64,000 nt of DNA from Thermotoga sp. Mc24 (GTDB taxonomy: Bacteria; Thermotogota; Thermotogae; Thermotogales; Thermotogaceae). The stretch lies in assembly GCF_000784835.1 (NCBI RefSeq), contig NZ_JSFH01000012.1, positions 1 to 64,000 of the forward strand. Reading direction: 5' to 3'. Position numbers and translations under genes: made by a program. Below are positions 1 through 12,833 of this stretch, one piece after another. The notes beneath the pieces were generated by a model. That model did no database searches. It saw only the letters and a program-made list of their open reading frames with translations, and was not told where the DNA came from. Positions within the stretch are counted from its first letter, which is position 1. Every line of letters starts with the position of its first letter.

Positions 1-629
1 AATTCACCGGCGCTGTTACATCTGAACTTGATGTCAAGATAACCCTGTTCACCGCCGGAGGATCTAAATACACAATTGTTGACTTGACAGCAGGCCAAGC
101 AACCCTTGGTGCTGTAACCTTTAAGTGGAAAACAGATGTTCTCAGTATAAGTGATTTTGGAGGGGCTCTTCCGAAAAACGAAGTAGTAGACAGTGCGGTT
201 GTCAGGGTAGAAGCCATTTATACATCTGCTTCCCAGCTTATTTTCCAGATCGGAGCGAACGAAGGGCACAACATGGTTGCAGGAATTGACGACATGAGCG
301 CAGCAGCACTCGGATTGACAACAACTTCCCTCAAAGTTACCACTCAAGACGCAGCCGAGAGAGCGATCATGGTTGTGGACGCTGCAATTCACAGGGTGAG
401 CACGGCAAGGGCAGCACTTGGTGCTGTTCAGAACAGGCTCGAACACACCATCTCCAACCTCGGAGTTGCAGCGGAAAACCTCACAGCGGCCGAATCCAGA
501 ATCAGAGACGCAGACATGGCAAAAGAGATGATGGAATTCACCAAACAACAGATCCTGCTTCAGTCCAGTATGGCTATGCTCGCTCAGTCCAACACACTAC
601 CACAGAACGTCCTCCAGCTGATGAGATAA
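1..629 (+). CDS. fliC: Flagellin, C-terminal part (5' end outside window)
   Basis: This is the filament subunit of the bacterial flagellum, exported and polymerised outside the cell. The reading frame is open from base 3, so the N-terminal D0/D1 helices lie outside the window. The visible 208 residues hold part of a variable beta-rich region and then the conserved C-terminal D1/D0 helices: a run containing ALGAVQNRLEHTISNL and then ENLTAAESRIRDADMAKEM, ending in the usual hydrophobic QSSMAMLAQSN...VLQLMR tail. A strong terminator follows directly. The next genes encode glycosyltransferases, which suggests filament modification. Family assignment is certain; the symbol is by family only. Confidence 0.96.
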   Translation, partial: FTGAVTSELDVKITLFTAGGSKYTIVDLTAGQATLGAVTFKWKTDVLSISDFGGALPKNEVVDSAVVRVEAIYTSASQLIFQIGANEGHNMVAGIDDMSAAALGLTTTSLKVTTQDAAERAIMVVDAAIHRVSTARAALGAVQNRLEHTISNLGVAAENLTAAESRIRDADMAKEMMEFTKQQILLQSSMAMLAQSNTLPQNVLQLMR

Positions 630-648
630 AAATAAACATCGTCAATTC

Positions 649-674
649 GGGGGCATATGCCCCCTTTGTTTTTG
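649..674 (+). terminator. Rho-independent terminator after flagellin
   Basis: A perfect 16-base palindrome (GGGGGCATATGCCCCC, 649-664) is followed by TTTGTTTTTG. It lies 20 bases after the flagellin stop codon and separates the highly expressed flagellin from the glycosyltransferase genes. Confidence 0.9.
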
Positions 675-734
675 TGCAAAAATATATGAGGAAGGAAAGA
701 GCAGGACATAGAAATATACAACCGAGGTGAGAAG

Positions 735-3317
735 ATGAGAAAATGTCTGCTTTCTGTAGCCATGATAGTGAAAGACGAAGAACACAACATAAGAAGAGCG
801 CTTGAAAGCATAAAAGACGTCGTAGATGAAATCGTGGTGGTCGACACGGGATCCAAAGACAGAACACCAGAGATCGTGAGAGAATACACAGACAAGCTTT
901 ACTTCCACGAATGGAAAAACGATTTCTCTGAAGCGAGGAACTTTTCTTTGAAATTTCCCACCTGCGAGTGGATTCTCATTCTGGACGCTGACGAAGAAGC
1001 TTCAGAAGAGTTCAGACAAAACATCAGAAGTTTTCTGGAAAGCCTATCAGAAGATGTGAACACCGTGTATCTTCCCACAGTGAGTTATCTTGATTGGGAC
1101 TTCAAAAAAACTGAAATAGCATCAACACCGAGGATCTTCAGAAACGGTACTGTTTACTATAAGAACATCGTTCACAACCAAGCGATTTATAAACCAAAGG
1201 TAGTACATGCCCCGTTCAGGATTTATCATTACGGCTACATCTGGACAAGAAAGCTCAAAAAGAAAAAGTATGAGCGAACAGGGACATTAATAAGAGAACA
1301 TCTAAAGAACGTGAAAGATCCTGTAGAAAAGATATATTACCTTATTCAGCTTTACAAAACAAAGAAAATAGGTGGTAAAAAGCACGAGGAAAACAAAATC
1401 GCTTGGGAGACTCTGCAGGAAATAATGAAAATCGGGAAAATACCTGCAATAGGTCTGGAATTTCTTTATATATTCGGAATGGAGCTAATTTTGAATGGGT
1501 TCCTTGAAAAAGGAGAAGAACTCATAGATACTGCCATAAAAGCCTTTCCGGAAAATCCTGATCCTTATTTTGCAAAGCTTGCTATTTATGAGAGAAGGAA
1601 AGATTGGGAGAATCTCTATCAATGGGGAAAGAAATTTCTCGATGTTTTAAATAAAGCTTTATCGCAGGCCGAGAAGTACGAATTCACCATCACAACTATA
1701 AAAGAAATAGGAACAGCTCACCTTCTCATGTGCCACGCTTGTGTAAAGCTTAAAAAATGGAATGAAGCTTATGAACATCTACTGAAAGCGATTGAAAATG
1801 ATATAGATGAGTCTAAATTCATCCTCACACTTCAAATTGTTTCAGAGATAAGCGAAAAAGAAGACTTCCAAAAGGTACTTAAATTAATCGAAAAGATCGC
1901 CGAAAACTCTGAAAACCTGTTTTTCGATGAAATAGTTGAGAAAATAGCGGAATTCGAGATTGAAGCATCCGAAAAGCTTTTGAACAAACTCCCTGTTTCA
2001 AGGAGAATCTCCAAATTCATTTTGAAGAGATTAGTAGAAAAGAAGGATTTCCTGTTCGAATACCTTACAAACGAGGACATAAACTCCTTCGTGGGAAAAA
2101 CAGGTATCCCCGGACTTCTTTTCATCTTCGATCTTTTGAGAGAGAAAGAAACAGAAGGAAGACTCATCAGAATCCTCTCAAAGATCGAAGGTGATGAAAA
2201 ACTTAACGGCATTATCCAGGCTCTCATCGGTGACCTGTATCTGAAACTTGGGAATTTCTCGGAAGCCATCTCAAGGTACAGAAAAACACTGGAACTGGCT
2301 CCGGAGATAGCAAGCTTCATAAAACCCGTGATAGAAGATCTGAAAACAAGACTCGACCCGGACATAGAAGGAGTTTACGAGGAATTGTACAGATACTTCT
2401 CCGGCTACAGAGAGTTTCCGTTCAACATCCTCGAATTCGCAAAAGAAGACGCAGAAAAACTGTATCTCATCTCCGATCACCCACTCGCCATCTACACCTC
2501 AGCAGTGGCTGTGTTCCAAAAAAGCAAAGAAAAAGCAAGAACGCTTCTTGAAAGAATAAAAGACATCTCAAAACTTCCATTCTACTATTACCGTCTCGCA
2601 AAAACCTGGGAAGAAGAGAATCCATTGAAAGCTTTCGAACTTCACATAAAAGCAGTGGAAGAAAACGAAAATCTGGGAGACATAGCACTTGGAAGATACA
2701 AATACAACGGGCTTTATCCGAATCAGACATTTCCGTTCATGAAAAAAGAGGATGAAATCATCTGGGTGGGAAACATAACAGAGAGATTCTCTGGTTTTGG
2801 TGCGATTCACCCTGTCAGAGCGTGGAAGAGAAAAGAAAACTTCTACTACGCGCTTCCATATCCATCAGATGAAGCCTTGAAGCTCTACAAAGAAAGAGAA
2901 AAGGAAATCATGAAAGAACCTCCATTCAAAGTGAAAGAAGAACACATAATAGAAGCTCTTCTGGAGAGCGATATAAGGGACCTGAGAATCAAAGGAGAAG
3001 CTCCTGGGATTGAGTCCGTCCTGAAAGATCTGGAAATAGAGTTGAAAGAAAACTCGAAGAACTTCCTTGTTGTTTCTGGTGTGGAAGAGACACTAGACCT
3101 GAATAAACTTGTTGAAAATGCTGAAAGAGTGCTTCTTTTCTTCTTCGTGCCTGATTTGAATGATAGAAACAACCCCGTGTGGTATTATCCTGGCTTCAGA
3201 GTATTGAGAACCACTCATCAAATGAGGAAAACTCTGGAAAATCTGAGATTCTCCGTTGTTAAAGTGAGAGCAGTTGATAAAAACCTCAGGTTCATTGAAG
3301 CCTTCAGGAGGGTCTGA
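735..3317 (+). CDS. Glycosyltransferase family 2 with TPR-like repeats
   Basis: This is an 860-residue protein with an N-terminal GT-A (GT2) domain. It opens with SVAMIVKDEEHNIRRALES, has VVVDTGSKDRT, and a DAD metal/nucleotide-sugar motif near residue 83 (WILILDADEE). From about residue 250 to 600 it is helical and TPR-like, as in SunS-type and other protein-modifying GT2 enzymes; the C-terminal third is not recognised. A GAGGTGA ribosome site at 723-729 supports the ATG. It lies between flagellin and another glycosyltransferase, so flagellin or surface-polymer glycosylation is likely but inferred. Roughly 1100-2050 is more A+T-rich than the flanks (for example 21 of 60 G+C at 1441-1500, against 28 of 60 at 2401-2460). 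Confidence 0.85.
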   Translation: MRKCLLSVAMIVKDEEHNIRRALESIKDVVDEIVVVDTGSKDRTPEIVREYTDKLYFHEWKNDFSEARNFSLKFPTCEWILILDADEEASEEFRQNIRSFLESLSEDVNTVYLPTVSYLDWDFKKTEIASTPRIFRNGTVYYKNIVHNQAIYKPKVVHAPFRIYHYGYIWTRKLKKKKYERTGTLIREHLKNVKDPVEKIYYLIQLYKTKKIGGKKHEENKIAWETLQEIMKIGKIPAIGLEFLYIFGMELILNGFLEKGEELIDTAIKAFPENPDPYFAKLAIYERRKDWENLYQWGKKFLDVLNKALSQAEKYEFTITTIKEIGTAHLLMCHACVKLKKWNEAYEHLLKAIENDIDESKFILTLQIVSEISEKEDFQKVLKLIEKIAENSENLFFDEIVEKIAEFEIEASEKLLNKLPVSRRISKFILKRLVEKKDFLFEYLTNEDINSFVGKTGIPGLLFIFDLLREKETEGRLIRILSKIEGDEKLNGIIQALIGDLYLKLGNFSEAISRYRKTLELAPEIASFIKPVIEDLKTRLDPDIEGVYEELYRYFSGYREFPFNILEFAKEDAEKLYLISDHPLAIYTSAVAVFQKSKEKARTLLERIKDISKLPFYYYRLAKTWEEENPLKAFELHIKAVEENENLGDIALGRYKYNGLYPNQTFPFMKKEDEIIWVGNITERFSGFGAIHPVRAWKRKENFYYALPYPSDEALKLYKEREKEIMKEPPFKVKEEHIIEALLESDIRDLRIKGEAPGIESVLKDLEIELKENSKNFLVVSGVEETLDLNKLVENAERVLLFFFVPDLNDRNNPVWYYPGFRVLRTTHQMRKTLENLRFSVVKVRAVDKNLRFIEAFRRV

Positions 3318-3319
3318 TT

Positions 3320-6300
3320 ATGGACATCTTTGAAGAGATAAGAAAAAGGATAGAACAAAAAGAATTCTCGAAAGCAAAAGAACTGATTGAAAAGATAGAA
3401 GATAAAGTAGAAAGATACAATTTGCTCGGAATCATACACTACTACGAAGGTAAAATCGACGAAGCGCTCATGTTTTTCAAAAAAGCCCTCGATATCAATC
3501 CAATTCACGACGATGTTCTTTTCAACTATTCAAAGGTGCTCTTTGAAAAGGGAGAATACTTCGAATCCTGGAGGTATCTGACAAGGATCAACAGCAAAAC
3601 GTGGGAAGTCTACGACATGCTTGGAGACACACAGTTGAAGCAGAACAATCCAGCGATGGCTCTTCATTACTATAAGAAGGCAATGGAACTTTCCAATATA
3701 CCGGAAATGAAAGAAAAATACCAGATCTTGAAGGACCAGTTCAAAAAAGACATAAAGCTTGCCATATTTTGCCTTCCTGGTCTGGACAACTTCATAAAAG
3801 ACATAGCTCAGATTTTGTCGAACATCTACGATGTGAAACTCGTAGTTACAACAGATGGGAAACAGATCCAGGAAGCTTACAACTGGGCAGATATCGTCTG
3901 GCTCGAATGGGCGAACGAAATGGCAGTGGAGATAACGAATAAACTGCCGAAGGATGGAAAAAAGATCATATGTAGATTACATGGTTACGAATCTCTTCGC
4001 AAAGATTTATTGAGTAACATCAAATGGGAGAAAGTAGATCATGTTGTTTTTGTCGCGGAAAATGTTTTGAAAACATCCCTTGAAAATTGTTCTCAACTCA
4101 AATTTGTTCCTCATTCATTGATTTGGAATGGAATAGATCTGACCAAGTTTACCTTCAAAGTGAGAAAACCTGGTTATAATCTCGTTTTTGTAGGGCATTT
4201 CAACTATAAGAAAAATCCGACTCTTGCAGTTCAAATATTAAAGAAATTGACAAATATTGATTCAAGATACAACATCTCCTGGGCGGGTCAGATGCAAGAT
4301 GAAAGAATGTGGAGGTACGTTAATTACGTACTAAAAAAGATGGGAATAGAAAACAGGTTCAAATTTGATGGTTTTATAACGAATGTTAACAATTATCTTG
4401 AGAGTAAAAACATTTTTTTGTCTACAAGTATACACGAAGGGTACGGAGTAGCAATTCTTGAAGCAATGGCCAAGGGTATAAAACCAGTGATTCATAACTT
4501 CTATGTAGCTGAAGAATTTTATCCCAGAGAATATATTTTCAATACAATTGATGAAGCAATAGAAATGATATGTTCCGATGATTATGATTCTACAAAATAT
4601 CGTGATTTTGTTGAACAAAATTGCTCCCTTGAAAAGCAAATTGCATCAATATTGAACATTGTCCAAACTCAAGATAACAGTAGAACAAAAAGTAAATCAA
4701 TCCATAAGAAATCAAGCACAGGGAATAGTTTCGCGAAAATATGGAAAGAATACAATAAACTTGATTCTTTCACTATCATGAACGATCTTCCAGGAAAAAG
4801 TCTTAGATCAGAATTTGTAAGTTTATTAGAGCGCTTTTTTATTCTCAACAAAGCACGGATTTTAGAAGTCGGAACTGGAACAGGAGCGTTCTCAATTGAA
4901 CTTGCACTCAGAGAAGCAGATGTCACTGGTATAGACATCGATCCTGCTTCTGTCGAACTAGCAACCAGGATAAGCAAGGATTATAATATTGAAAACGCTG
5001 AATTCGAAGTAGGTGATGGTTTAAAACTTACAGAATCGTTCAAGCCACAGGAGTTTGATATTGCTTTCAACATGGGAGTGGTTGAACACTTTAAAGATGA
5101 CGACATAATCAAAATGTTAAAGCAAATGGGTGAAGTTGCGAAATTCGTTGTAGTAGGCGTTCCATACAGTGGTTCATTTGTTTACAAAACAGCAAAAGAA
5201 ACCGCTCAAAAACTTGGTGCCTGGGAATATGGTTTTGAAAGAGACTTTTTAACCTTGGAACCTCTTATCAAACGAGCAGGTTTAATCCCTCTTCATGAAG
5301 AAGTAATAGGAGTTCTGGCAGAACCGTTTTACCTGAGAAGGATAAATCCAGAGTGGGTACCTTTAAAAATAGCTGAGAATTTGCAAAAATATTTTCAAGG
5401 TGAAAAAGTTGGTTCCTGGTTGATTTGTTTTGCAACAAAATGGCCAGGTTACGCAGATGAATTTCTGAAATTAGATGATCACAAGAAAATAAAGTTTGAA
5501 GGCAAACAAATAAGCTTATTAACTGTCCCCAAACCGCTGGTTTCTATTGTTATACCTGTTTTGAACGGAGCAAATTATGTAAAAAGACTCGTGGATAATC
5601 TTAAACAAATCGATCATGAAAATTTAGAGATTGTATTGGTTGACGATGGTTCAACTGATGGAACAGCTGATTTATTTGAAAGCCTCACAAAAGGAGAACC
5701 TAAGTTACGAGAGAAGGTTTTGATAATTAGAAATAAAGAAAACGTTGGAACCTTTCACTCAAGATTGATGGGCGTTAAACACAGTCAAGGATCATTTGTT
5801 TTCTTTCATGACATTGACGATCTTGCTTACCCCAAAGGAGTCAAAAAACTTTTGGATGATTTGCTGAATTTTCCGAACAAAAAACCATTACTCACCGTGG
5901 CAAATGCTTTGATGTCAGGAGAACAGTTCAATGGAGAAATTTGGTGCAGTGATTTTTACAAAAACATAGAAGAATTGTTTGTTTCAGAAATCACTTCTCT
6001 TTCAGGGAAAATTCCGATAATAGACACCCTTATAGAACGTATCCCTCTTCAAAAAGCTTATGAAGAACTTGCTAAAGTTCTTAGTAAAGTAGGAATAATA
6101 AAAATGACGATTGCCGAGGATACAATTCTTGCCAATTATCTTTTATTGGAGCATTTTGTGGAAAAAATGATTCCTACTTTCTACATTTTCCGGGGCTATG
6201 AGGTCGGTAACTTACAATCGAGCTCAAAAAAACTTTTGGAAAGGATCAAACAAATTCCCATACACATTGCCTTCCTCATGGTAATGTCACAAAAAGAAAA

Positions 6301-6442
6301 ATTATTCGATAAGGCAACTCTCAATCAGCTTGAAAACACTGTGAAGCAGAGTGCTGTTAGAATCTACGGTCAAGAATTGGGACTGAAATTCTTTGAAAAC
6401 TATCTAGAATTCAAACGTCGCTTTTCCAGTATACTTCTATAA
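3320..6442 (+). CDS. TPR / GT-B / methyltransferase / GT-A fusion protein
   Basis: This 1040-residue protein carries four apparent modules. Residues about 1-130 are TPR-like. About 150-440 resemble a GT4 (GT-B) glycosyltransferase, with LVFVGHFNYKKNP near 287 and SIHEGYGVAILEAMAKG near 370. About 480-680 form a class I SAM methyltransferase, with ILEVGTGTGAFSIEL near 514 and TGIDIDPAS. About 735-1040 form a GT2 (GT-A) domain, with SIVIPVLNG, VLVDDGSTDGT and FHDIDD. It starts two bases after the upstream glycosyltransferase, so the two are co-expressed. From about 3990 onward it is strikingly A+T-rich (16 of 60 G+C at 4561-4620), which suggests an acquired segment joined to a native N-terminus. 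It could build and methylate a short glycan; the substrate is not known. Confidence 0.85.
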   Translation: MDIFEEIRKRIEQKEFSKAKELIEKIEDKVERYNLLGIIHYYEGKIDEALMFFKKALDINPIHDDVLFNYSKVLFEKGEYFESWRYLTRINSKTWEVYDMLGDTQLKQNNPAMALHYYKKAMELSNIPEMKEKYQILKDQFKKDIKLAIFCLPGLDNFIKDIAQILSNIYDVKLVVTTDGKQIQEAYNWADIVWLEWANEMAVEITNKLPKDGKKIICRLHGYESLRKDLLSNIKWEKVDHVVFVAENVLKTSLENCSQLKFVPHSLIWNGIDLTKFTFKVRKPGYNLVFVGHFNYKKNPTLAVQILKKLTNIDSRYNISWAGQMQDERMWRYVNYVLKKMGIENRFKFDGFITNVNNYLESKNIFLSTSIHEGYGVAILEAMAKGIKPVIHNFYVAEEFYPREYIFNTIDEAIEMICSDDYDSTKYRDFVEQNCSLEKQIASILNIVQTQDNSRTKSKSIHKKSSTGNSFAKIWKEYNKLDSFTIMNDLPGKSLRSEFVSLLERFFILNKARILEVGTGTGAFSIELALREADVTGIDIDPASVELATRISKDYNIENAEFEVGDGLKLTESFKPQEFDIAFNMGVVEHFKDDDIIKMLKQMGEVAKFVVVGVPYSGSFVYKTAKETAQKLGAWEYGFERDFLTLEPLIKRAGLIPLHEEVIGVLAEPFYLRRINPEWVPLKIAENLQKYFQGEKVGSWLICFATKWPGYADEFLKLDDHKKIKFEGKQISLLTVPKPLVSIVIPVLNGANYVKRLVDNLKQIDHENLEIVLVDDGSTDGTADLFESLTKGEPKLREKVLIIRNKENVGTFHSRLMGVKHSQGSFVFFHDIDDLAYPKGVKKLLDDLLNFPNKKPLLTVANALMSGEQFNGEIWCSDFYKNIEELFVSEITSLSGKIPIIDTLIERIPLQKAYEELAKVLSKVGIIKMTIAEDTILANYLLLEHFVEKMIPTFYIFRGYEVGNLQSSSKKLLERIKQIPIHIAFLMVMSQKEKLFDKATLNQLENTVKQSAVRIYGQELGLKFFENYLEFKRRFSSILL

Positions 6443-6508
6443 ATTACAATATACGAAAAAATTCACATAGTTGTTCCAGTTTTTGAAACCGCTTTCTTTA
6501 CATTTTTT

Positions 6509-6517
6509 TGCTATAAT
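6509..6517 (+). promoter_or_regulatory. Extended -10 promoter of the flavodiiron operon
   Basis: TGCTATAAT is a perfect extended -10 element. No convincing -35 box is found at 16-18 bases, as expected for an extended -10 promoter. The predicted start near 6524 would give a leader of about 30 bases before the ATG at 6554. Confidence 0.6.
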
Positions 6518-6553
6518 CACTTTGGAATCCCTAATTCAATGGAGGTGTCCTGC

Positions 6554-7750
6554 ATGCCCAAAATCTGGACTGAAAAGATCTTCGACGATCCGGAAATCTA
6601 CATTTTGAGAATAGACGACGATCAGATAAAGTACTTCGAGGCGGTTTGGGAAATACCCGAAGGGATCAGCTACAACGCGTACCTTGTGAAGCTGAATGAT
6701 GCAAACGTTCTGATAGACGGCTGGAAGAAGAACTACACGAAAGAGTTCATCGAGACTCTGTCCAGGATCGTTGATCCTAAGGAGATCACGCACATCATCG
6801 TGAACCACACCGAGCCGGACCACAGCGGATCTCTCCCTGCAACGCTCGAAGCGATTGGTCACGATGTGGAAATAATCGCTTCGAACTTCGGAAAAAGACT
6901 CCTCGAAGGATTCTACGGCATAAAAGACGTGACTGTCGTGAAGGATGGAGAAGAGAAAGAAATCGGAGGGAAAAAATTCAAATTCGTCATGACTCCCTGG
7001 CTTCACTGGCCCGACACGATGGTGACGTATCTTGATGGAATTCTCTTCGGCTGTGATGTGGGCGGTGGATACCTGCTCCCAGAGACTCTGGACGACTCAA
7101 ACGAGAGCGTTGTGGAAAGATACCTTCCCCACGTCACAAAGTACATTGTCACGGTGATAGGACATTACAAGAATTACATCCTCGAAGGTGCGGAAAAGCT
7201 CTCCAGTCTGAAGATAAAGGCGCTCCTTCCAGGGCACGGACTGATCTGGAAGAAAGATCCTCAGAGACTTTTGAATCATTACGTGAGTGTCGCGAAGGGT
7301 GAACCGAAAAAAGGAAAAGTCACGGTGATCTACGATTCCATGTACGGCTTCGTCGAGAACGTGATGAAGAAGGCGATCGACTCTCTCAAGGAGAAAGGTT
7401 TCACACCGGTTGTGTACAAATTCTCCGACGAAGAGAGACCCGCGATCAGCGAGATCTTGAAAGACATCCCGGACAGTGAAGCACTGATCTTCGGTGTTTC
7501 TACCTACGAAGCAGAGATACATCCACTCATGAGATTCACCCTTCTCGAGATAATAGATAAAGTGAACTACGAAAAATCCGTCCTCGTCTTTGGAGTGCAC
7601 GGCTGGGCTCCATCCGTAGAAAGAACAGCGGGAGAGCTTCTGAAAGAAACGAAGTTCAGAATTCTCTCTTTCACGGAGATAAAAGGTTCAAACATGGATG
7701 AGAAGAAGATCGAAGAGGCGATATCTCTTCTCAAAAAAGAACTGGAGTGA
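6554..7750 (+). CDS. fprA: Flavodiiron protein (oxygen reductase FprA)
   Basis: This cytoplasmic enzyme reduces oxygen to water (family members may also reduce nitric oxide) with electrons from rubredoxin. The N-terminal metallo-beta-lactamase-like domain has the diiron motif HTEPDHSGSLPA and PWLHWPDTMVTYLDG. The C-terminal flavodoxin domain begins at KVTVIYDSMYGFVENVM, near residue 255. I chose ATG 6554 over 6539 because GGAGGTG at 6541-6547 overlaps the earlier ATG and is well spaced for the later one. This gives 398 residues, the length I recall for the T. maritima protein. It is followed six bases later by its probable redox partner. In T. maritima the pair acts with a rubredoxin encoded elsewhere in an oxygen-reduction chain. 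Confidence 0.95.
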   Translation: MPKIWTEKIFDDPEIYILRIDDDQIKYFEAVWEIPEGISYNAYLVKLNDANVLIDGWKKNYTKEFIETLSRIVDPKEITHIIVNHTEPDHSGSLPATLEAIGHDVEIIASNFGKRLLEGFYGIKDVTVVKDGEEKEIGGKKFKFVMTPWLHWPDTMVTYLDGILFGCDVGGGYLLPETLDDSNESVVERYLPHVTKYIVTVIGHYKNYILEGAEKLSSLKIKALLPGHGLIWKKDPQRLLNHYVSVAKGEPKKGKVTVIYDSMYGFVENVMKKAIDSLKEKGFTPVVYKFSDEERPAISEILKDIPDSEALIFGVSTYEAEIHPLMRFTLLEIIDKVNYEKSVLVFGVHGWAPSVERTAGELLKETKFRILSFTEIKGSNMDEKKIEEAISLLKKELE

Positions 7751-7756
7751 TGAACG

Positions 7757-8833
7757 GTGAAAATAGTGATCGTTGGAAACGGCCCCGGCGGTGTTGAACT
7801 CGCAAAACAGCTTTCAGAAGAACACGAGGTCACCATCGTGGAAAGAGAAACGGTGCCCTACTACACGAAACCCATGCTCAGCCATTACGTCGCAGGACTG
7901 GCGGAGGAAAAAAGTCTCTTTCCCTATCCGCTCGACTGGTACGAAAAGAAGGGAATAAAACTCCTTCTTGGAACAACCGCAAAGAGAATAGACGCAGAAA
8001 AGAAAGTTCTCGAAACAGACAGAGGAACCCTCGAATACGACGTCCTCGTTCTCGCAACGGGTGCAAAGCCGAGAGCACTCAAGATACCCGGCTGGGAGCG
8101 AATGTATACTTTGAGGACGATAGAAGATGCGAAGAGATTGAAAAAGGCAGTGGAAAGAGAGAAAGATCTTCTCATCATCGGCGGAGGGTTCATCGGTCTT
8201 GAAATCGCAGGAAATCTGTCGAAGCAGGGTATCAAAGTGAAAGTGGTTGAGAAGATGACCCGTCTCATGGGGTTGGACGAAGAACTGACAGAGAGAATAA
8301 AAGGAGAGCTCGAAAAACACGGAGTGGAGTTTTACCTCGGCAGGGACGTGGAGAGAATAGAAAACGATGTTCTCGTCACAGACAAAGAAGAGATACCGGC
8401 GAGGGTGATTCTCTGCTCCATAGGAATTGTCCCGGAGGTGTCGCTTGCAGAAGAGAGCGGACTCGATGTGAACAGGGGCATCTTGGTGGACAAAACGTTC
8501 AGAACCTCAAAACCTGACGTATACGCCATCGGTGACTGCGCAGAGCACGAAGGCATCATCTGTGGAACAGCGAAAGCCGCTATGGCACACGCGAAAGTTT
8601 TGGCAAACACGTTGAAGGGTATACCCGATGAGTACGACTTTCGCTTCAAATCTTCTTACTTCAAGTTCGGAGACTTTCCTATAGCCATAGTTGGAGAACT
8701 CACAGACAGAGGAGAGTGGATCGACAGCGAAACAAAGGCTTTCTACAGAGACGAAAAAATCGTCGGTGTGGTCGTTCTATCCGACGTGAGAAAAGCCAGG
8801 GAGTGGGAGGAAAGACTAAGAAGCACGCGATGA
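7757..8833 (+). CDS. NAD(P)H:rubredoxin-type FAD oxidoreductase
   Basis: This 358-residue pyridine nucleotide-disulphide oxidoreductase family protein has an N-terminal FAD site (VIVGNGPGGVELAKQL), a central NAD(P)H site (LLIIGGGFIGLEIAGNL, near residue 135) and a second FAD contact (DVYAIGDCAE). The N-terminal PYYTKPMLSHYVAG resembles NADH:rubredoxin reductases. It starts at GTG 7757, supported by GGAGTGA at 7744-7750, which overlaps the upstream stop. Cotranscription with FprA supports electron delivery to it through rubredoxin, as described for the T. maritima oxygen-reduction chain. No rubredoxin gene is present in the window. Confidence 0.9.
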   Translation: MKIVIVGNGPGGVELAKQLSEEHEVTIVERETVPYYTKPMLSHYVAGLAEEKSLFPYPLDWYEKKGIKLLLGTTAKRIDAEKKVLETDRGTLEYDVLVLATGAKPRALKIPGWERMYTLRTIEDAKRLKKAVEREKDLLIIGGGFIGLEIAGNLSKQGIKVKVVEKMTRLMGLDEELTERIKGELEKHGVEFYLGRDVERIENDVLVTDKEEIPARVILCSIGIVPEVSLAEESGLDVNRGILVDKTFRTSKPDVYAIGDCAEHEGIICGTAKAAMAHAKVLANTLKGIPDEYDFRFKSSYFKFGDFPIAIVGELTDRGEWIDSETKAFYRDEKIVGVVVLSDVRKAREWEERLRSTR

Positions 8834-9492
8834 AACTTTTCGACAGAATAGCGGAAAGGTACGATCTTTTGAACAGGATCATCTCTTTTGGTATGGATAC
8901 AAAATGGAGAAAACGGGTAGTGGAACTCATCCTTGAGGTGAATCCAGAAAAGGTCCTCGATCTTGCCACAGGAACCGGAGATGTAGCCAGACTCCTGAAA
9001 AGAAAAGCACCGCATCTTAAAATCACAGGCCTGGATTCTTCATCGAAGATGCTGGAAACAGCAAAAAAGAGATTGAAAGATGGAGAGTTCATCGTAGGAG
9101 ACGCTCACAATCTTCCTTTCGACGATAGAAGTTTCGACGCCATCACCGTGGCTTTCGGCTTCAGAAATTTCTCAGACAGAAGAAGAGTCCTGAGAGAGTG
9201 CAGAAGAGTTCTCAAAAGAAAGGGAAGATTGGTGATCCTTGAACTCCTTCCACCTAACACCAAAAGATTCACGGGAAAGATCTACTCTTTTTATTTGAAG
9301 ACCTGGGTTCCATTCGTTGGGGGTCTTTTCAGTGGGGATTTCCACGCCTACAGGTATCTCTCCACCTCAGTTCTCAACTTCCTGACACCGGATCAAATAG
9401 TGGAGATGATGAAAGAAGAAGGCTTCGAGATGAGTTTTGAACCTCTTTTCTTCTCTGTAGCGGGAATTTTCATTGGCGATTTGATCTTGTGA
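8830..9492 (+). CDS. ubiE: UbiE/MenG-type SAM methyltransferase
   Basis: This 220-residue class I methyltransferase has motif I VLDLATGTGDVARLL, then ITGLDSSSKML, VGDAHNLPFDDRSFDAITVAFGFRNF and VILELLPPNT, all typical of the UbiE/MenG (demethylmenaquinone methyltransferase) family. I chose ATG 8830, which overlaps the previous stop as ATGA and so suggests translational coupling; the open frame further upstream overlaps the oxidoreductase gene. A substrate is uncertain, because Thermotoga is not known to make menaquinone and no other quinone gene is seen here. Confidence 0.85.
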   Translation: MKLFDRIAERYDLLNRIISFGMDTKWRKRVVELILEVNPEKVLDLATGTGDVARLLKRKAPHLKITGLDSSSKMLETAKKRLKDGEFIVGDAHNLPFDDRSFDAITVAFGFRNFSDRRRVLRECRRVLKRKGRLVILELLPPNTKRFTGKIYSFYLKTWVPFVGGLFSGDFHAYRYLSTSVLNFLTPDQIVEMMKEEGFEMSFEPLFFSVAGIFIGDLIL

Positions 9493-9497
9493 GACGT

Positions 9498-9526
9498 TTG
9501 GGATCACCTGCAAAAGCTGATAGAAT
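9498..9526 (+). promoter_or_regulatory. Sigma-A promoter of the GH4 gene
   Basis: TTGGGA (9498-9503) and TAGAAT (9521-9526) are separated by exactly 17 bases. The predicted start is near 9533, upstream of the alpha-glucuronidase start at 9582. Confidence 0.65.
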
Positions 9527-9540
9527 TTTCTCAGGTAATT

Positions 9541-9561
9541 AATTCGTCTCAGAAACGAATT
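9541..9561 (+). promoter_or_regulatory. Candidate operator, inverted repeat
   Basis: A perfect 7+7 inverted repeat, AATTCGT-CTCAGAA-ACGAATT, begins about eight bases after the predicted transcription start. Its position fits repressor control of the sugar-acid hydrolase gene. The cognate regulator is not in the window. Confidence 0.45.
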
Positions 9562-9581
9562 TAACATGAGGGGGCAGGATC

Positions 9582-10997
9582 ATGAAGATCTCCATCATCG
9601 GAGCGGGGAGTGTGAGGTTCGCACTTCAGCTTGTAGGGGACATCGCTCAGACGGAGGAACTTTCAAGGGAAGATACACACATCTACATGATGGACGTTCA
9701 TGAAAGAAGACTGAACGCATCTTACATCCTCGCAAAAAAGTACGTGGAAGAGCTGAACTCTCCTGTAAAGATCGTAAAAACATCCAGTCTGGATGAAGCC
9801 ATAGATGGAGCAGACTTCATCATAAACACCGCCTATCCTTACGATCCGAGGTACCACGACAGCGGCTCTCAAAGATGGGACGAGGTCACAAAAGTCGGTG
9901 AAAAACACGGCTACTACAGAGGAATAGACAGTCAGGAGTTGAACATGGTTTCCACTTACACCTACGTTCTTTCTTCTTATCCCGACATGAAGCTCGCCCT
10001 CGAGATAGCGGAGAAGATGAAAAAGATGGCACCCAGAGCGTACCTGATGCAAACGGCAAATCCCGTCTTCGAGATCACGCAGGCGGTGAGAAGGTGGACC
10101 GGTGCGAACATAGTGGGGTTCTGCCACGGTGTTGCCGGGGTTTATGAAGTCTTCGAAAAACTCGACCTCGATCCAGAAGAAGTGGACTGGCAGGTCGCTG
10201 GAGTGAACCACGGTATCTGGCTGAACAGGTTCAGGTACAGAGGAGAAGATGCATACCCGCTTCTCGACGAGTGGATAGAGAAGAAGCTACCAGAGTGGGA
10301 GCCGAAGAACCCATGGGACACACAGATGTCTCCTGCCGCGATGGATATGTACAAATTTTACGGTATGCTTCCAATAGGTGACACCGTGAGGAACGGCAGC
10401 TGGAAGTACCACTACAACCTGGAGACGAAGAAGAAGTGGTTTGGAAAGTTCGGCGGCATAGACAACGAAGTGGAAAGACCGAAATTCCATGAGCAACTCA
10501 GAAGAGCAAGAGAGTGCCTCATAAAACTTGCAGAAGAGGTTCAGCAAAGACCAGGTATGAAACTCACGGAGGAACATCCTGACATCTTCCCGAAAGGAAA
10601 ACTCAGCGGAGAACAGCACATTCCTTTCATCAACGCGGTAGCGAACAACAAACGTGTGAGACTCTTTCTGAACGTGGAAAACCGGGGAGTGCTCAAAGAC
10701 TTTCCCGATGATCTTGTGATGGAACTTCCCGTCTGGGTGGACGGCAGTGGAATCCACAGAGAGAAAGTGGAACCCGATCTCACCCACCGGATAAAGATCT
10801 TCTATCTGTGGCCCAGGATTCTGAGAATGGAGTGGAACTTAGAAGCATACATCTCGAGGGACAGAAAGGTGCTCGAAGAAATCCTCCTCAGAGATCCAAG
10901 GACAAAATCCTACGAGCAGATCGTGCAAGTGCTCGATGAGATCTTCAACCTGCCGTTCAACGAAGAGTTGAGGAGATACTACGAAAAGAAATTCTGA
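9582..10997 (+). CDS. agu4B: GH4 alpha-glucuronidase (NAD+ and Mn2+ dependent)
   Basis: This is a 471-residue glycoside hydrolase of family 4, which cleaves glycosides by an NAD+-dependent redox mechanism. The N-terminus has the Rossmann motif IGAGSVRFALQLVGDIAQ. The metal-binding cysteine and histidine are in GFCHGVAGVYE (Cys near residue 180), and VAGVNHGIWL follows. It matches the T. maritima enzyme I recall as Agu4B (TM0752), an alpha-glucuronidase, although it has also been labelled a putative alpha-glucosidase. GGGGGCAGGATC precedes the ATG. It is monocistronic, with its own promoter and a hairpin terminator just downstream. It probably processes glucuronosyl units from xylan breakdown. 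Confidence 0.92.
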   Translation: MKISIIGAGSVRFALQLVGDIAQTEELSREDTHIYMMDVHERRLNASYILAKKYVEELNSPVKIVKTSSLDEAIDGADFIINTAYPYDPRYHDSGSQRWDEVTKVGEKHGYYRGIDSQELNMVSTYTYVLSSYPDMKLALEIAEKMKKMAPRAYLMQTANPVFEITQAVRRWTGANIVGFCHGVAGVYEVFEKLDLDPEEVDWQVAGVNHGIWLNRFRYRGEDAYPLLDEWIEKKLPEWEPKNPWDTQMSPAAMDMYKFYGMLPIGDTVRNGSWKYHYNLETKKKWFGKFGGIDNEVERPKFHEQLRRARECLIKLAEEVQQRPGMKLTEEHPDIFPKGKLSGEQHIPFINAVANNKRVRLFLNVENRGVLKDFPDDLVMELPVWVDGSGIHREKVEPDLTHRIKIFYLWPRILRMEWNLEAYISRDRKVLEEILLRDPRTKSYEQIVQVLDEIFNLPFNEELRRYYEKKF

Positions 10998-11004
10998 AAG
11001 AACA

Positions 11005-11030
11005 AAGCCCCCTGATCGGGGGCTTTTCTT
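11005..11030. terminator. Bidirectional terminator between GH4 gene and tRNA-Gln
   Basis: The hairpin GCCCCC-TGATC-GGGGGC (11007-11023) is followed by TTTTCTTTT on the plus strand and is preceded by an A-rich stretch that reads TTTGTTCTTT on the minus strand. It can end both the GH4 transcript and the tRNA-Gln transcript. Confidence 0.88.
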
Positions 11031-11031
11031 T

Positions 11032-11105
11032 TGGCTGGGGCGGGTGGATTCGAACCACCGATCGCGGATCCAAAGTCCGCCGCCTTACCGCTTGGCCACG
11101 CCCCA
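11032..11105 (-). tRNA. tRNA-Gln (anticodon UUG)
   Basis: The reverse complement folds as a 74-base cloverleaf with encoded CCA. The acceptor stem is TGGGGCG/CGCCCCA. The anticodon stem-loop is GCGGA-CTTTGGA-TCCGC, with anticodon TTG. The T arm is GGTGG-TTCGAAT-CCACC. The anticodon reads CAA (and, by wobble, CAG). Confidence 0.97.
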
Positions 11106-11115
11106 ACCCTTTCCA

Positions 11116-11124
11116 TGCTATAAT
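11116..11124 (+). promoter_or_regulatory. Extended -10 promoter of the kinase operon
   Basis: TGCTATAAT is identical to the element before the flavodiiron gene. Any -35 box would lie inside the tRNA gene, where none matches well. It overlaps the minus-strand tRNA promoter. Confidence 0.5.
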
Positions 11125-11151
11125 TTTACCACTGTAGGAAAGCTCCTTCAA
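11123..11151 (-). promoter_or_regulatory. Promoter of tRNA-Gln
   Basis: Read on the minus strand, TTGAAG (11151-11146), a 17-base spacer and TAAAAT (11128-11123) form a good sigma-A promoter. The start near 11116 lies about ten bases before the tRNA 5' end at 11105. Confidence 0.7.
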
Positions 11152-11165
11152 GGGAGGAAGACAGC

Positions 11166-12833
11166 ATGCGAAAGATCACACTTCATTCAAAACTGGACGG
11201 AAGGGAGATTGTTCTCGAGGAAAATCAGAATCTTTTCGATATAGCCAGAGAGTACCAGAAGTACTACAGGTACAAAATACTGGCTGCGAGGGTGAATAAC
11301 AGGATAATAGAACTCTTCAGAACACCCGATAGAAGCGGAGAACTCGAATTTTTAGACCTCACAGATCCTGACGGACTCAGAATATACCAGAGGGGACTCG
11401 TCTTCCTCGCAAGTCTCGCCGTGAGAAAACTGAATTCGGAATGGCGATTGAAGGTCCTTCACTCACTCGGGAAGGGGATATACTGCGAAATCTATAAGGG
11501 AAATGAATTAATCGTTCCCGATCAGAATCAGGTGCTCGCCATAAAAAACAAGATGAGAGAACTCGTCGAGAAAGATCTGCCTATTGAGAAGAGAACGTTC
11601 TACAAAGACGAAGCAAGGGAGATATTAATGAAGGAAGGACTTGTGAAAACGGTCAATCTCTTCAAGTACAGAAAGAAAAGAACCGTGAAGCTTTACCACT
11701 GCGATGGTTTCTGGGCGTACTTCTACGGGTATCTTCCACCGAGCACCGGCAGGATCGACGTTTTCGATGTTCAGCCCTACAATCAGGGGCTTGTTCTTGT
11801 CCATCCGGATCCAAAAACAGGAGAGCTTCCCGTCATCCACATGCCCAAACTCTCCCAGGTGTTCCTCGAATACGCCCGATGGCTGAACGTTCTGGAACTC
11901 GAGTACGTATCCGATCTCAACGATATCATAGCCCGTGGGGAAAGACACGTGGCCGACCTGATGCTTCTTTCCGAAGCACTTCATGAAAAGAAGATCTCAG
12001 ACATAGCAGATGAAATCGCAAAAGACAAAAGAAAACGGCTCATTCTGATTGCGGGTCCTTCCTCTTCGGGAAAGACCACCTTCGCCAAGAGACTCTCACT
12101 CCAGCTCAGAGTGAACGGTCTAAAACCGGTTGCCATTTCTCTCGACGACTACTTCGTGGACAGAGAGAAAACACCGCGTGACGAAAACGGAAACTACGAT
12201 TTCGACTCGATAGAGGCTCTCGACATAGAACTCTTCAACAGGAACCTTCAGGATCTTTTGGCTGGAAAAGAGGTGGTCCTGCCGAAGTTCAACTTCAAGA
12301 CCGGAAAGAGGATGAGAGGTCCCACCCTCAAGTTGGAGAAGGACAATATCATCATCGTCGAAGGAATACACGGTCTGAACGAACGCCTGACGGCCTCTAT
12401 ACCGAAAGAGCAGAAGTTCAAGATATACGTGAGCGCACTGACTCAGCTGAACATAGACGATCACAACAGAGTCACAACAACGGACACGCGGCTCATCAGA
12501 AGAATCGTGAGGGACTACAAGTTCCGGGGACACACCGCATACGACACGTTGAAGATGTGGCCAAACGTCAGAAAGGGTGAAGAAAGAAACATCTTCCCGT
12601 TCCAGGAAGAAGCTGATGTGATGTTCAACTCGGCCCTGGTTTACGAAATACCAGTGCTTAGGATATTCGCCGAACCGCTTCTCGTTCAGGTTCCGGAAGA
12701 TACACCAGAGTACTCAGAAGCGCTGAGACTTCTGAAACTTTTGGACTTCTTCCTTCCGATCACGAACATAGAAGATATTCCCGATAAATCGATCCTCAGA
12801 GAGTTCATAGGAAGGAGTATCTTCAAATATTGA
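11166..12833 (+). CDS. TGS-domain nucleoside (uridine) kinase-like fusion
   Basis: This 555-residue protein ends in a P-loop kinase of the uridine kinase/phosphoribulokinase type: Walker A LIAGPSSSGKTTFAKRLS near residue 300, then SLDDYFVDREKTP and VEGIHGLN. The first half looks like the N-terminus of threonyl-tRNA synthetase: a TGS-like domain, then a region whose LYHCDGFWAYFYGYLPPSTG parallels the [17 protein letters not shown] of ThrRS, but without the editing-site residues. Such fusions are annotated as uridine or nucleoside kinases. Activity on uridine is not shown by the sequence. GGGAGGAAG precedes the ATG. Confidence 0.85.
   Translation: MRKITLHSKLDGREIVLEENQNLFDIAREYQKYYRYKILAARVNNRIIELFRTPDRSGELEFLDLTDPDGLRIYQRGLVFLASLAVRKLNSEWRLKVLHSLGKGIYCEIYKGNELIVPDQNQVLAIKNKMRELVEKDLPIEKRTFYKDEAREILMKEGLVKTVNLFKYRKKRTVKLYHCDGFWAYFYGYLPPSTGRIDVFDVQPYNQGLVLVHPDPKTGELPVIHMPKLSQVFLEYARWLNVLELEYVSDLNDIIARGERHVADLMLLSEALHEKKISDIADEIAKDKRKRLILIAGPSSSGKTTFAKRLSLQLRVNGLKPVAISLDDYFVDREKTPRDENGNYDFDSIEALDIELFNRNLQDLLAGKEVVLPKFNFKTGKRMRGPTLKLEKDNIIIVEGIHGLNERLTASIPKEQKFKIYVSALTQLNIDDHNRVTTTDTRLIRRIVRDYKFRGHTAYDTLKMWPNVRKGEERNIFPFQEEADVMFNSALVYEIPVLRIFAEPLLVQVPEDTPEYSEALRLLKLLDFFLPITNIEDIPDKSILREFIGRSIFKY

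Follow-up and report, generated by a model that had tools for sequence, protein, structure and literature searches.

The gene at 3320–6442 raises the question of how an A+T-rich, multi-module glycosyltransferase beside flagellin was put together, and what its construction suggests about its function. The window, which is the whole 64-kb stretch of DNA analysed, belongs to the genome of Thermotoga sp. Mc24 (G000); the genomes compared were sampled at one genome per species. The preliminary description of this locus had proposed that a new catalytic body was spliced onto a resident N-terminus, giving a strain-specific enzyme. In the window, flagellin is followed by a GT2-TPR partner gene and then by the four-module enzyme:

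3–629, + strand: flagellin, C-terminal 208 residues (Flagellin_C, 4e-30; 91% identical to residues 180–387 of the G005 flagellin)
735–3317, + strand: GT2 glycosyltransferase with TPR repeats (partner gene), 860 aa (Glycos_transf_2, 1e-19)
3320–6442, + strand: four-module enzyme, 1040 aa (single reading frame and Pfam)

The reading frame at 3320–6442 is intact over 1040 codons, and its start codon lies 2 bases after the partner gene. Flagellin is present beside the locus, as had been stated, but its gene is incomplete. It is split over two contig ends: the start of the window contig cuts the gene, codons 1–24 are located at G000:C11:149102–149173, and residues 1–24 and 180–387 were recovered from the two contigs with the stretch between them missing. 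The partner gene was found in 52 of the 103 phylum genomes, and its identity mostly declines with taxonomic distance. Within the genus (seven genomes, different species), the order flagellin, GT2-TPR gene, four-module gene, flavodiiron protein, oxidoreductase and ubiE-like gene is largely kept; as exceptions, contig ends interrupt the locus in G010, and the ubiE-like gene was undetected in G009.

That one chain of 1040 residues carries four modules in the order first described was borne out by the single reading frame and by Pfam. TPR, Glycos_transf_1, methyltransferase and Glycos_transf_2 profiles matched in this order, every one above its curated cut-off: TPR_1/TPR_2 at the N-terminus, Glycos_transf_1 at residues 285–399, Methyltransf_31/25/11 at 511–608 and Glycos_transf_2 at 742–848. 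The parts of the chain are as follows:

3320–3739, + strand: TPR domain, residues 1–140, nine helices (Pfam TPR; AlphaFold2 model, mean pLDDT 95; 90% identical to G005)
3740–3964, + strand: resident first part of the GT-B N-domain, residues 141–215, with the conserved block ADIVWLEWANE (93–100% identical to G005)
3967–4640, + strand: foreign cassette, class A, residues ~216–437/440, comprising the end of the N-domain and the whole donor-binding C-domain (blastn, identities, AU tests)
4436–4462, + strand: EX7E donor-site motif, E373-GYGVAIL-E381, the class A signature (class B has ESFGYNIAE or EGHPYNIME)
4760–5524, + strand: SAM methyltransferase module, residues 481–735 (Methyltransf_31, 2e-17; dS to G005 0.09)
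5525–6439, + strand: GT2 (GT-A) module, residues 736–1040, with DDGSTDG, DIDD and ED motifs (Glycos_transf_2, 2e-23; motifs conserved in alignment A3)

The GT-B module, residues 141–455, matched PF00534 with 61.8 bits against a cut-off of 26.4; in its EX7E motif, E381 is invariant in 31 sequences and E373 nearly so. The best 25 of 32 Pfam matches include Glycos_transf_1 and no GT41 family. The methyltransferase matched PF13847 with 63.6 bits (cut-off 27) and contains the glycine-rich motif I, ILEVGTGTG, at 514–522. The GT2 module matched PF00535 with 83.4 bits (cut-off 23.3), and D833, D834, E933 and D934 are invariant in alignment A3. Structure prediction, which had been suggested as a check, gave a TPR domain and a GT-B fold for residues 1–461 (AlphaFold2, mean pLDDT 95.2). 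In Foldseek, the best solved relative of the model was BshA with UDP (E 8e-13, TM (target) 0.70); OGT and SPY (SPINDLY) matched TPR plus GT-B with an rmsd of 20–24, an agreement limited to the general layout. By the Glycos_transf_1 match, the modelled GT-B fold and the EX7E motif, residues 141–455 are assigned to GT4 as a predicted member of that family.

The case for acquisition had been built on base composition. The hand counts of G+C (16/60 at 4561–4620 and 32/60 at 7201–7260) are exact, and a break near 3990 does exist: GC3 falls from 0.516 in codons 1–215 to 0.30, and nowhere in the 64-kb window is A+T higher than at ~3951–4870. The first 650 bases, said to look native, do so in GC3 alone (0.516); their G+C is 0.394 against 0.459 for the window. 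The G+C of the upstream partner gene is 0.398, and that of the downstream genes is ~0.48. Both the first 650 bases and the partner gene are low in G+C, therefore the dip spans both genes, ~700–6450. Orthologues, too, are richer in A+T than the DNA around them, and in all genomes compared GC3 drops from the N-part to the cassette, so that A+T-richness does not serve here as a sign of acquisition. Because the orthologues share both the A+T-richness and the GC3 fall, base composition on its own makes a weak case for a recent acquisition.

Alignment with the nearest congener, G005, falls into three blocks. By blastn, the DNA is 88.8% identical at 3–3966 and 95.9% identical at 4607–12454, whereas the ~650 bases between 3966 and 4607 do not align and are ~55% identical. 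Compared to G005, dS is 0.50 in the partner gene, 0.46 in the TPR domain and 0.44 in residues 141–215; it is saturated in the cassette, 0.09 in the methyltransferase, 0.13 in the GT2 module and 0.11–0.17 in the downstream neighbours. The rest of the body (4640–6442) has 91–96% protein identity to G005 and background dS. In a scan of the 103 phylum genomes, the best matches of the cassette belong to other families (G073 83%, G071 80%, G083 76%), against 42–45% in congeners (44–45% in G005). For one housekeeping neighbour (555 aa), the values are 58–59% to the G073, G071 and G083 genomes and 99% to G005. The AU test rejects grouping the G000 cassette with G005 and G007, the two closest congeners (p 1e-62), or with its own genus (p 3e-39); it also rejects grouping the N-part of G000 with G083a, G073 and G071 (p 2e-10). 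Both cassette junctions are in frame.

Taken together, these comparisons show that residues ~216–437 of G000 have been replaced by recombination with DNA of another Thermotogota family, the donor lineage being named as the nearest relative among the genomes compared. Of the proposed new body on a resident N-terminus, the foreign join stood, at ~3966 instead of the claimed ~3990; the extent did not, as the insert is internal and ends before the methyltransferase. The mosaic is unlikely to come from an assembly chimaera, because the locus lies on a single 334-kb contig, the frame is intact and the exact piece occurs in no genome compared. Because the middle of flagellin is missing, it is hidden where the recombinant region ends on the left. 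In the left block (3–3966: flagellin, partner gene and TPR), dS to G005 is ~4 times that of the right block, and this block may be a separate introgression.

The C-domain of GT-B enzymes binds the nucleotide sugar. In the AlphaFold2 model the C-domain (~287–420) is located wholly within the cassette, which also includes the last third of the GT-B N-domain; the left edge falls at strand 215–220 of the N-terminal Rossmann domain and the right edge where the closing helix (437–460) begins.

This exchange is not confined to G000. In the cassette tree of 31 proteins, two classes, A and B, are split with 100/100 support; the labels were set after inspecting the cassette. Class A carries EGYGVAI[L/M]E, and class B carries ESFGYNIAE or EGHPYNIME. 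When class is placed on the tree of residues 1–215 of the 31 proteins, it changes 8 times, and at least 6 changes are forced by well-supported branches; in a reduced set of 20 proteins without long-branched or distant rows, there are 5 class changes, all forced by starred branches. For example, L061 (class B) sits by its N-part among class A proteins, away from G074 (p 5e-5). Eleven positions fully separate A from B, all in 222–396 and none in 1–215. Identity drops at residues 211–240, adjoining the invariant RLH (219–221), in four pairs (G000/G005, G071/L061, G073/G074 and G085/G083b). The trees and the shared position of this drop show that the cassette class has been exchanged repeatedly across the phylum, at least five times and at the same edge. 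Within class B, at least 4 flips of the EX7E loop, from ESFG to EGHP or back, are needed, and the best tree has 6. In L020 and L021, from the close relatives G008 and G006, ESFGYNIA and EGHPYNIM stand within an otherwise nearly unchanged stretch.

A class B TPR-GT4 paralogue without flagellin nearby is present in G000 itself (G000:C12:140079–140903; L002, L028), with relatives in G009 and G013. Gene conversion from this paralogue was considered as the source of the cassette and rejected, the paralogue being class B and only 42–44% identical in the cassette.

The four-module architecture was supposed to be strain-specific, and this is not the case. Orthologues with the same module order occur in G005 and G007 (82% and 81%), in G008 (48%) and probably in G006, and the identical layout is found in two other families (G071 of f2 and G090 of f3); the G009 orthologue stops after the GT4 module. 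Other genomes thus match G000 in architecture and composition, though not in the cassette. In G006 all modules are encoded, and the frame is broken by one A-run indel (6 versus 7 A). A natural gene fission between methyltransferase and GT2 was therefore rejected; a sequencing error is likely, because the break is a single A-run indel and two neighbouring genes of G006 are likewise broken. In the window, a run of seven A lies at 6226–6232 within the GT2 module; G007 has six, and its last ~60 residues are out of frame. This difference may reflect phase variation or sequencing error, the two being indistinguishable. G005 and G007 (L018:6013–9147 and L019:9606–12850), which are different species, share a gene that is 100% identical over its full length apart from one A-run indel, within flanks 93–96% identical; judged from this alignment, this is evidently a very recent between-species exchange.

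The methyltransferase-GT2 body is present in 7 of 103 genomes. That of G000 and G005 shares 68% identity with G071, a member of another family, versus 41% with the congener G008, and monophyly of the genus is rejected for the body (p 8e-4; six sequences, one long branch). On these values the body is an older acquisition or exchange across families, made before G000, G005 and G007 parted; since G005 and G007 share it, it is older than the cassette exchange. Other relatives carry a second GT4, a different methyltransferase or no recognised module as their tails. Among the matches listed in a phage search, only generic GT matches were found, covering 9–18% of the query.

Flagellin was found ≤5 kb from the TPR-GT4 gene at 17 of 25 Thermotogota loci, which are not independent of relatedness; one of the 17 is a weak match, and some loci are cut by contig ends. 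It was near none of the 3 paralogue loci and is absent near several orthologue loci too. An alignment-based search found distant homologues in Paenibacillus, Bacillus, Psychrobacillus, Orenia, Halanaerobium and Sporomusa, and these too lie near flagellin. In Orenia and Halanaerobium (L078:6042–10280 and L086:5703–9917), TPR-GT4 is fused to a GT2 part resembling the partner gene, giving one protein of ~1,400 residues near flagellin. From its gene linkage, flagellin is the likely target of the enzyme; the TPR-GT4 layout also serves non-flagellin roles, as indicated by the paralogues without nearby flagellin. Literature searches turned up no publication that deals with flagellin glycosylation in Thermotoga.

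The explanation we lean towards is that a TPR glycosyltransferase resembling FlmG (compared below), with an exchangeable donor-specificity domain, builds the flagellin glycan. The enzyme would act in the cytoplasm and assemble a short glycan on flagellin, as FlmG does. Its TPR domain would grip the flagellin monomer; the GT4 module would add a sugar from a nucleotide donor, or extend a sugar set by the partner GT2-TPR enzyme; the GT2 module would then lengthen the chain and the methyltransferase would cap it. The GT4 donor domain is an exchangeable cassette, replaced in this genome while the preceding stem and the following modules stayed put; a swap would alter the transferred sugar. K298 and E381 are invariant and kept in both classes, hence class A and class B enzymes should both be active. 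Among the class-specific residues are three in the loop inside EX7E (375, 377 and 378) as well as W321, close to where the sugar pocket is expected. That the swap changes the transferred sugar is, in our estimate, just short of an even chance; the class differences might instead alter stability or acceptor fit. A broader version, in which a phylum-wide pool of two distinct donor cassettes with one conserved crossover edge re-specifies Thermotogota flagellin glycans, while the tails (methyltransferase, GT2, second GT4) are exchanged independently, is, in our view, somewhat less likely than not.

The exchange could also be real and leave the donor unchanged, two ancient, equivalent allele classes being reassorted by ordinary thermophile recombination with conserved blocks as crossover points. 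We regard this as a serious possibility, if a somewhat doubtful one. The catalytic residues common to both classes fit it, as does the left edge, which lies where a crossover would be expected, at the end of the most conserved block (codons 151–210, 80–91% identical in DNA between families); the whole neighbourhood recombines as well, as seen in the identical gene of G005 and G007 within its less similar flanks. However, the class-specific residues include some near the expected sugar pocket, the sharp split between classes is unlike a neutral continuum, and the loop flips within class B also speak against equivalence. Some other target, such as an S-layer or toga protein or a polysaccharide, with flagellin adjacent by chance, would explain the three paralogue and several orthologue loci without flagellin; we consider it unlikely, for the linkage is kept from Thermotogota to Bacillota, the GT2 partner gene sits between flagellin and the four-module gene in the genus, and in Orenia and Halanaerobium GT2 and TPR-GT4 are one protein beside flagellin.

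The two remaining explanations concern the origin of the gene. In the preliminary description, everything from ~3990 to the stop codon was one recent, strain-specific acquisition on a resident N-terminus. The position of the composition break fits this, and the body is patchy and closer to G071 than to G008; yet from 4607 on, ~96% identity to G005 with background dS resumes, which refutes a single recent event, most of the genus has the same architecture, and the body exchange predates that of the cassette. We judge it very improbable. Less credible still, to the point of being nearly dismissed, is that nothing was acquired and that the pattern arose as a glycosyltransferase domain diverged rapidly by vertical descent, with the A+T bias often seen in genes of this kind. 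All orthologues are indeed A+T-rich against their neighbours and show the GC3 drop, but the cassette is 83% identical to another family versus 44% to its own genus between flanks at 88–96%, and the tree conflict (the AU test above, p 1e-62) refutes this explanation.

Swapping of GT-B domains is a design aim, and natural exchanges of the donor half with the first half kept are useful guides; a literature search for natural donor-domain exchange found nothing direct. G000/G005, G071/L061 and G073/G074 are natural matched pairs from thermophiles with a shared stem (~92% identical in G000/G005, lower in the other two) and different donor domains, and they make the question whether the C-domain alone sets the donor directly testable. 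The findings also suggest that flagellin glycans change quickly as a surface trait of hyperthermophiles, in which the sugar coat of the flagellum may be re-specified by exchange of one domain.

One of the closest known systems is FlmG of Caulobacter crescentus (PMC7591256), a TPR plus GT-B flagellin O-glycosyltransferase using pseudaminic acid, whose TPR domain binds flagellin and can deliver it to the GT-B domain. The N-terminal TPR and GT-B are common to both enzymes, and so, judging by gene linkage here, would be the flagellin substrate. Different from FlmG, the Thermotoga enzyme has a GT4-like GT-B module, continues with a methyltransferase and a GT2 module on the same chain, and carries its donor domain as a cassette that has been exchanged in nature. 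The Clostridioides difficile type B GT2 CDR20291_0242 (PMC5207246) is likewise encoded downstream of flagellin and joins a glycosyltransferase to a methyltransferase on one chain; this flagellin transferase is proposed to add and methylate rhamnose. It is described with PF00535 and a methyltransferase, whereas the present chain begins with a TPR-GT4 half, continues with the methyltransferase and ends with GT2. Enterobacterial flagellin glycosylation islands also encode a transferase and a methyltransferase on one chain (PMC4875605); these are GT41 proteins, and the sections of that paper on which we draw mention no further GT2 module, whereas the transferase here is GT4. In the Limosilactobacillus reuteri adhesin glycosyltransferase GtfC (PMC12809243), strain-dependent sugar choice is set by residues of the C-terminal donor domain, as we suppose for the present enzyme; GtfC alleles differ by ten point differences within family GT113, whereas a whole GT4 domain is exchanged here. 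BshA (GT4, UDP-GlcNAc:L-malate transferase), whose fold comes closest to the GT-B part among PDB structures, has a UDP-sugar donor site; it is 14–18% identical over the matched part and, different from the Thermotoga enzyme, is free-standing, acts on malate and is without TPR.
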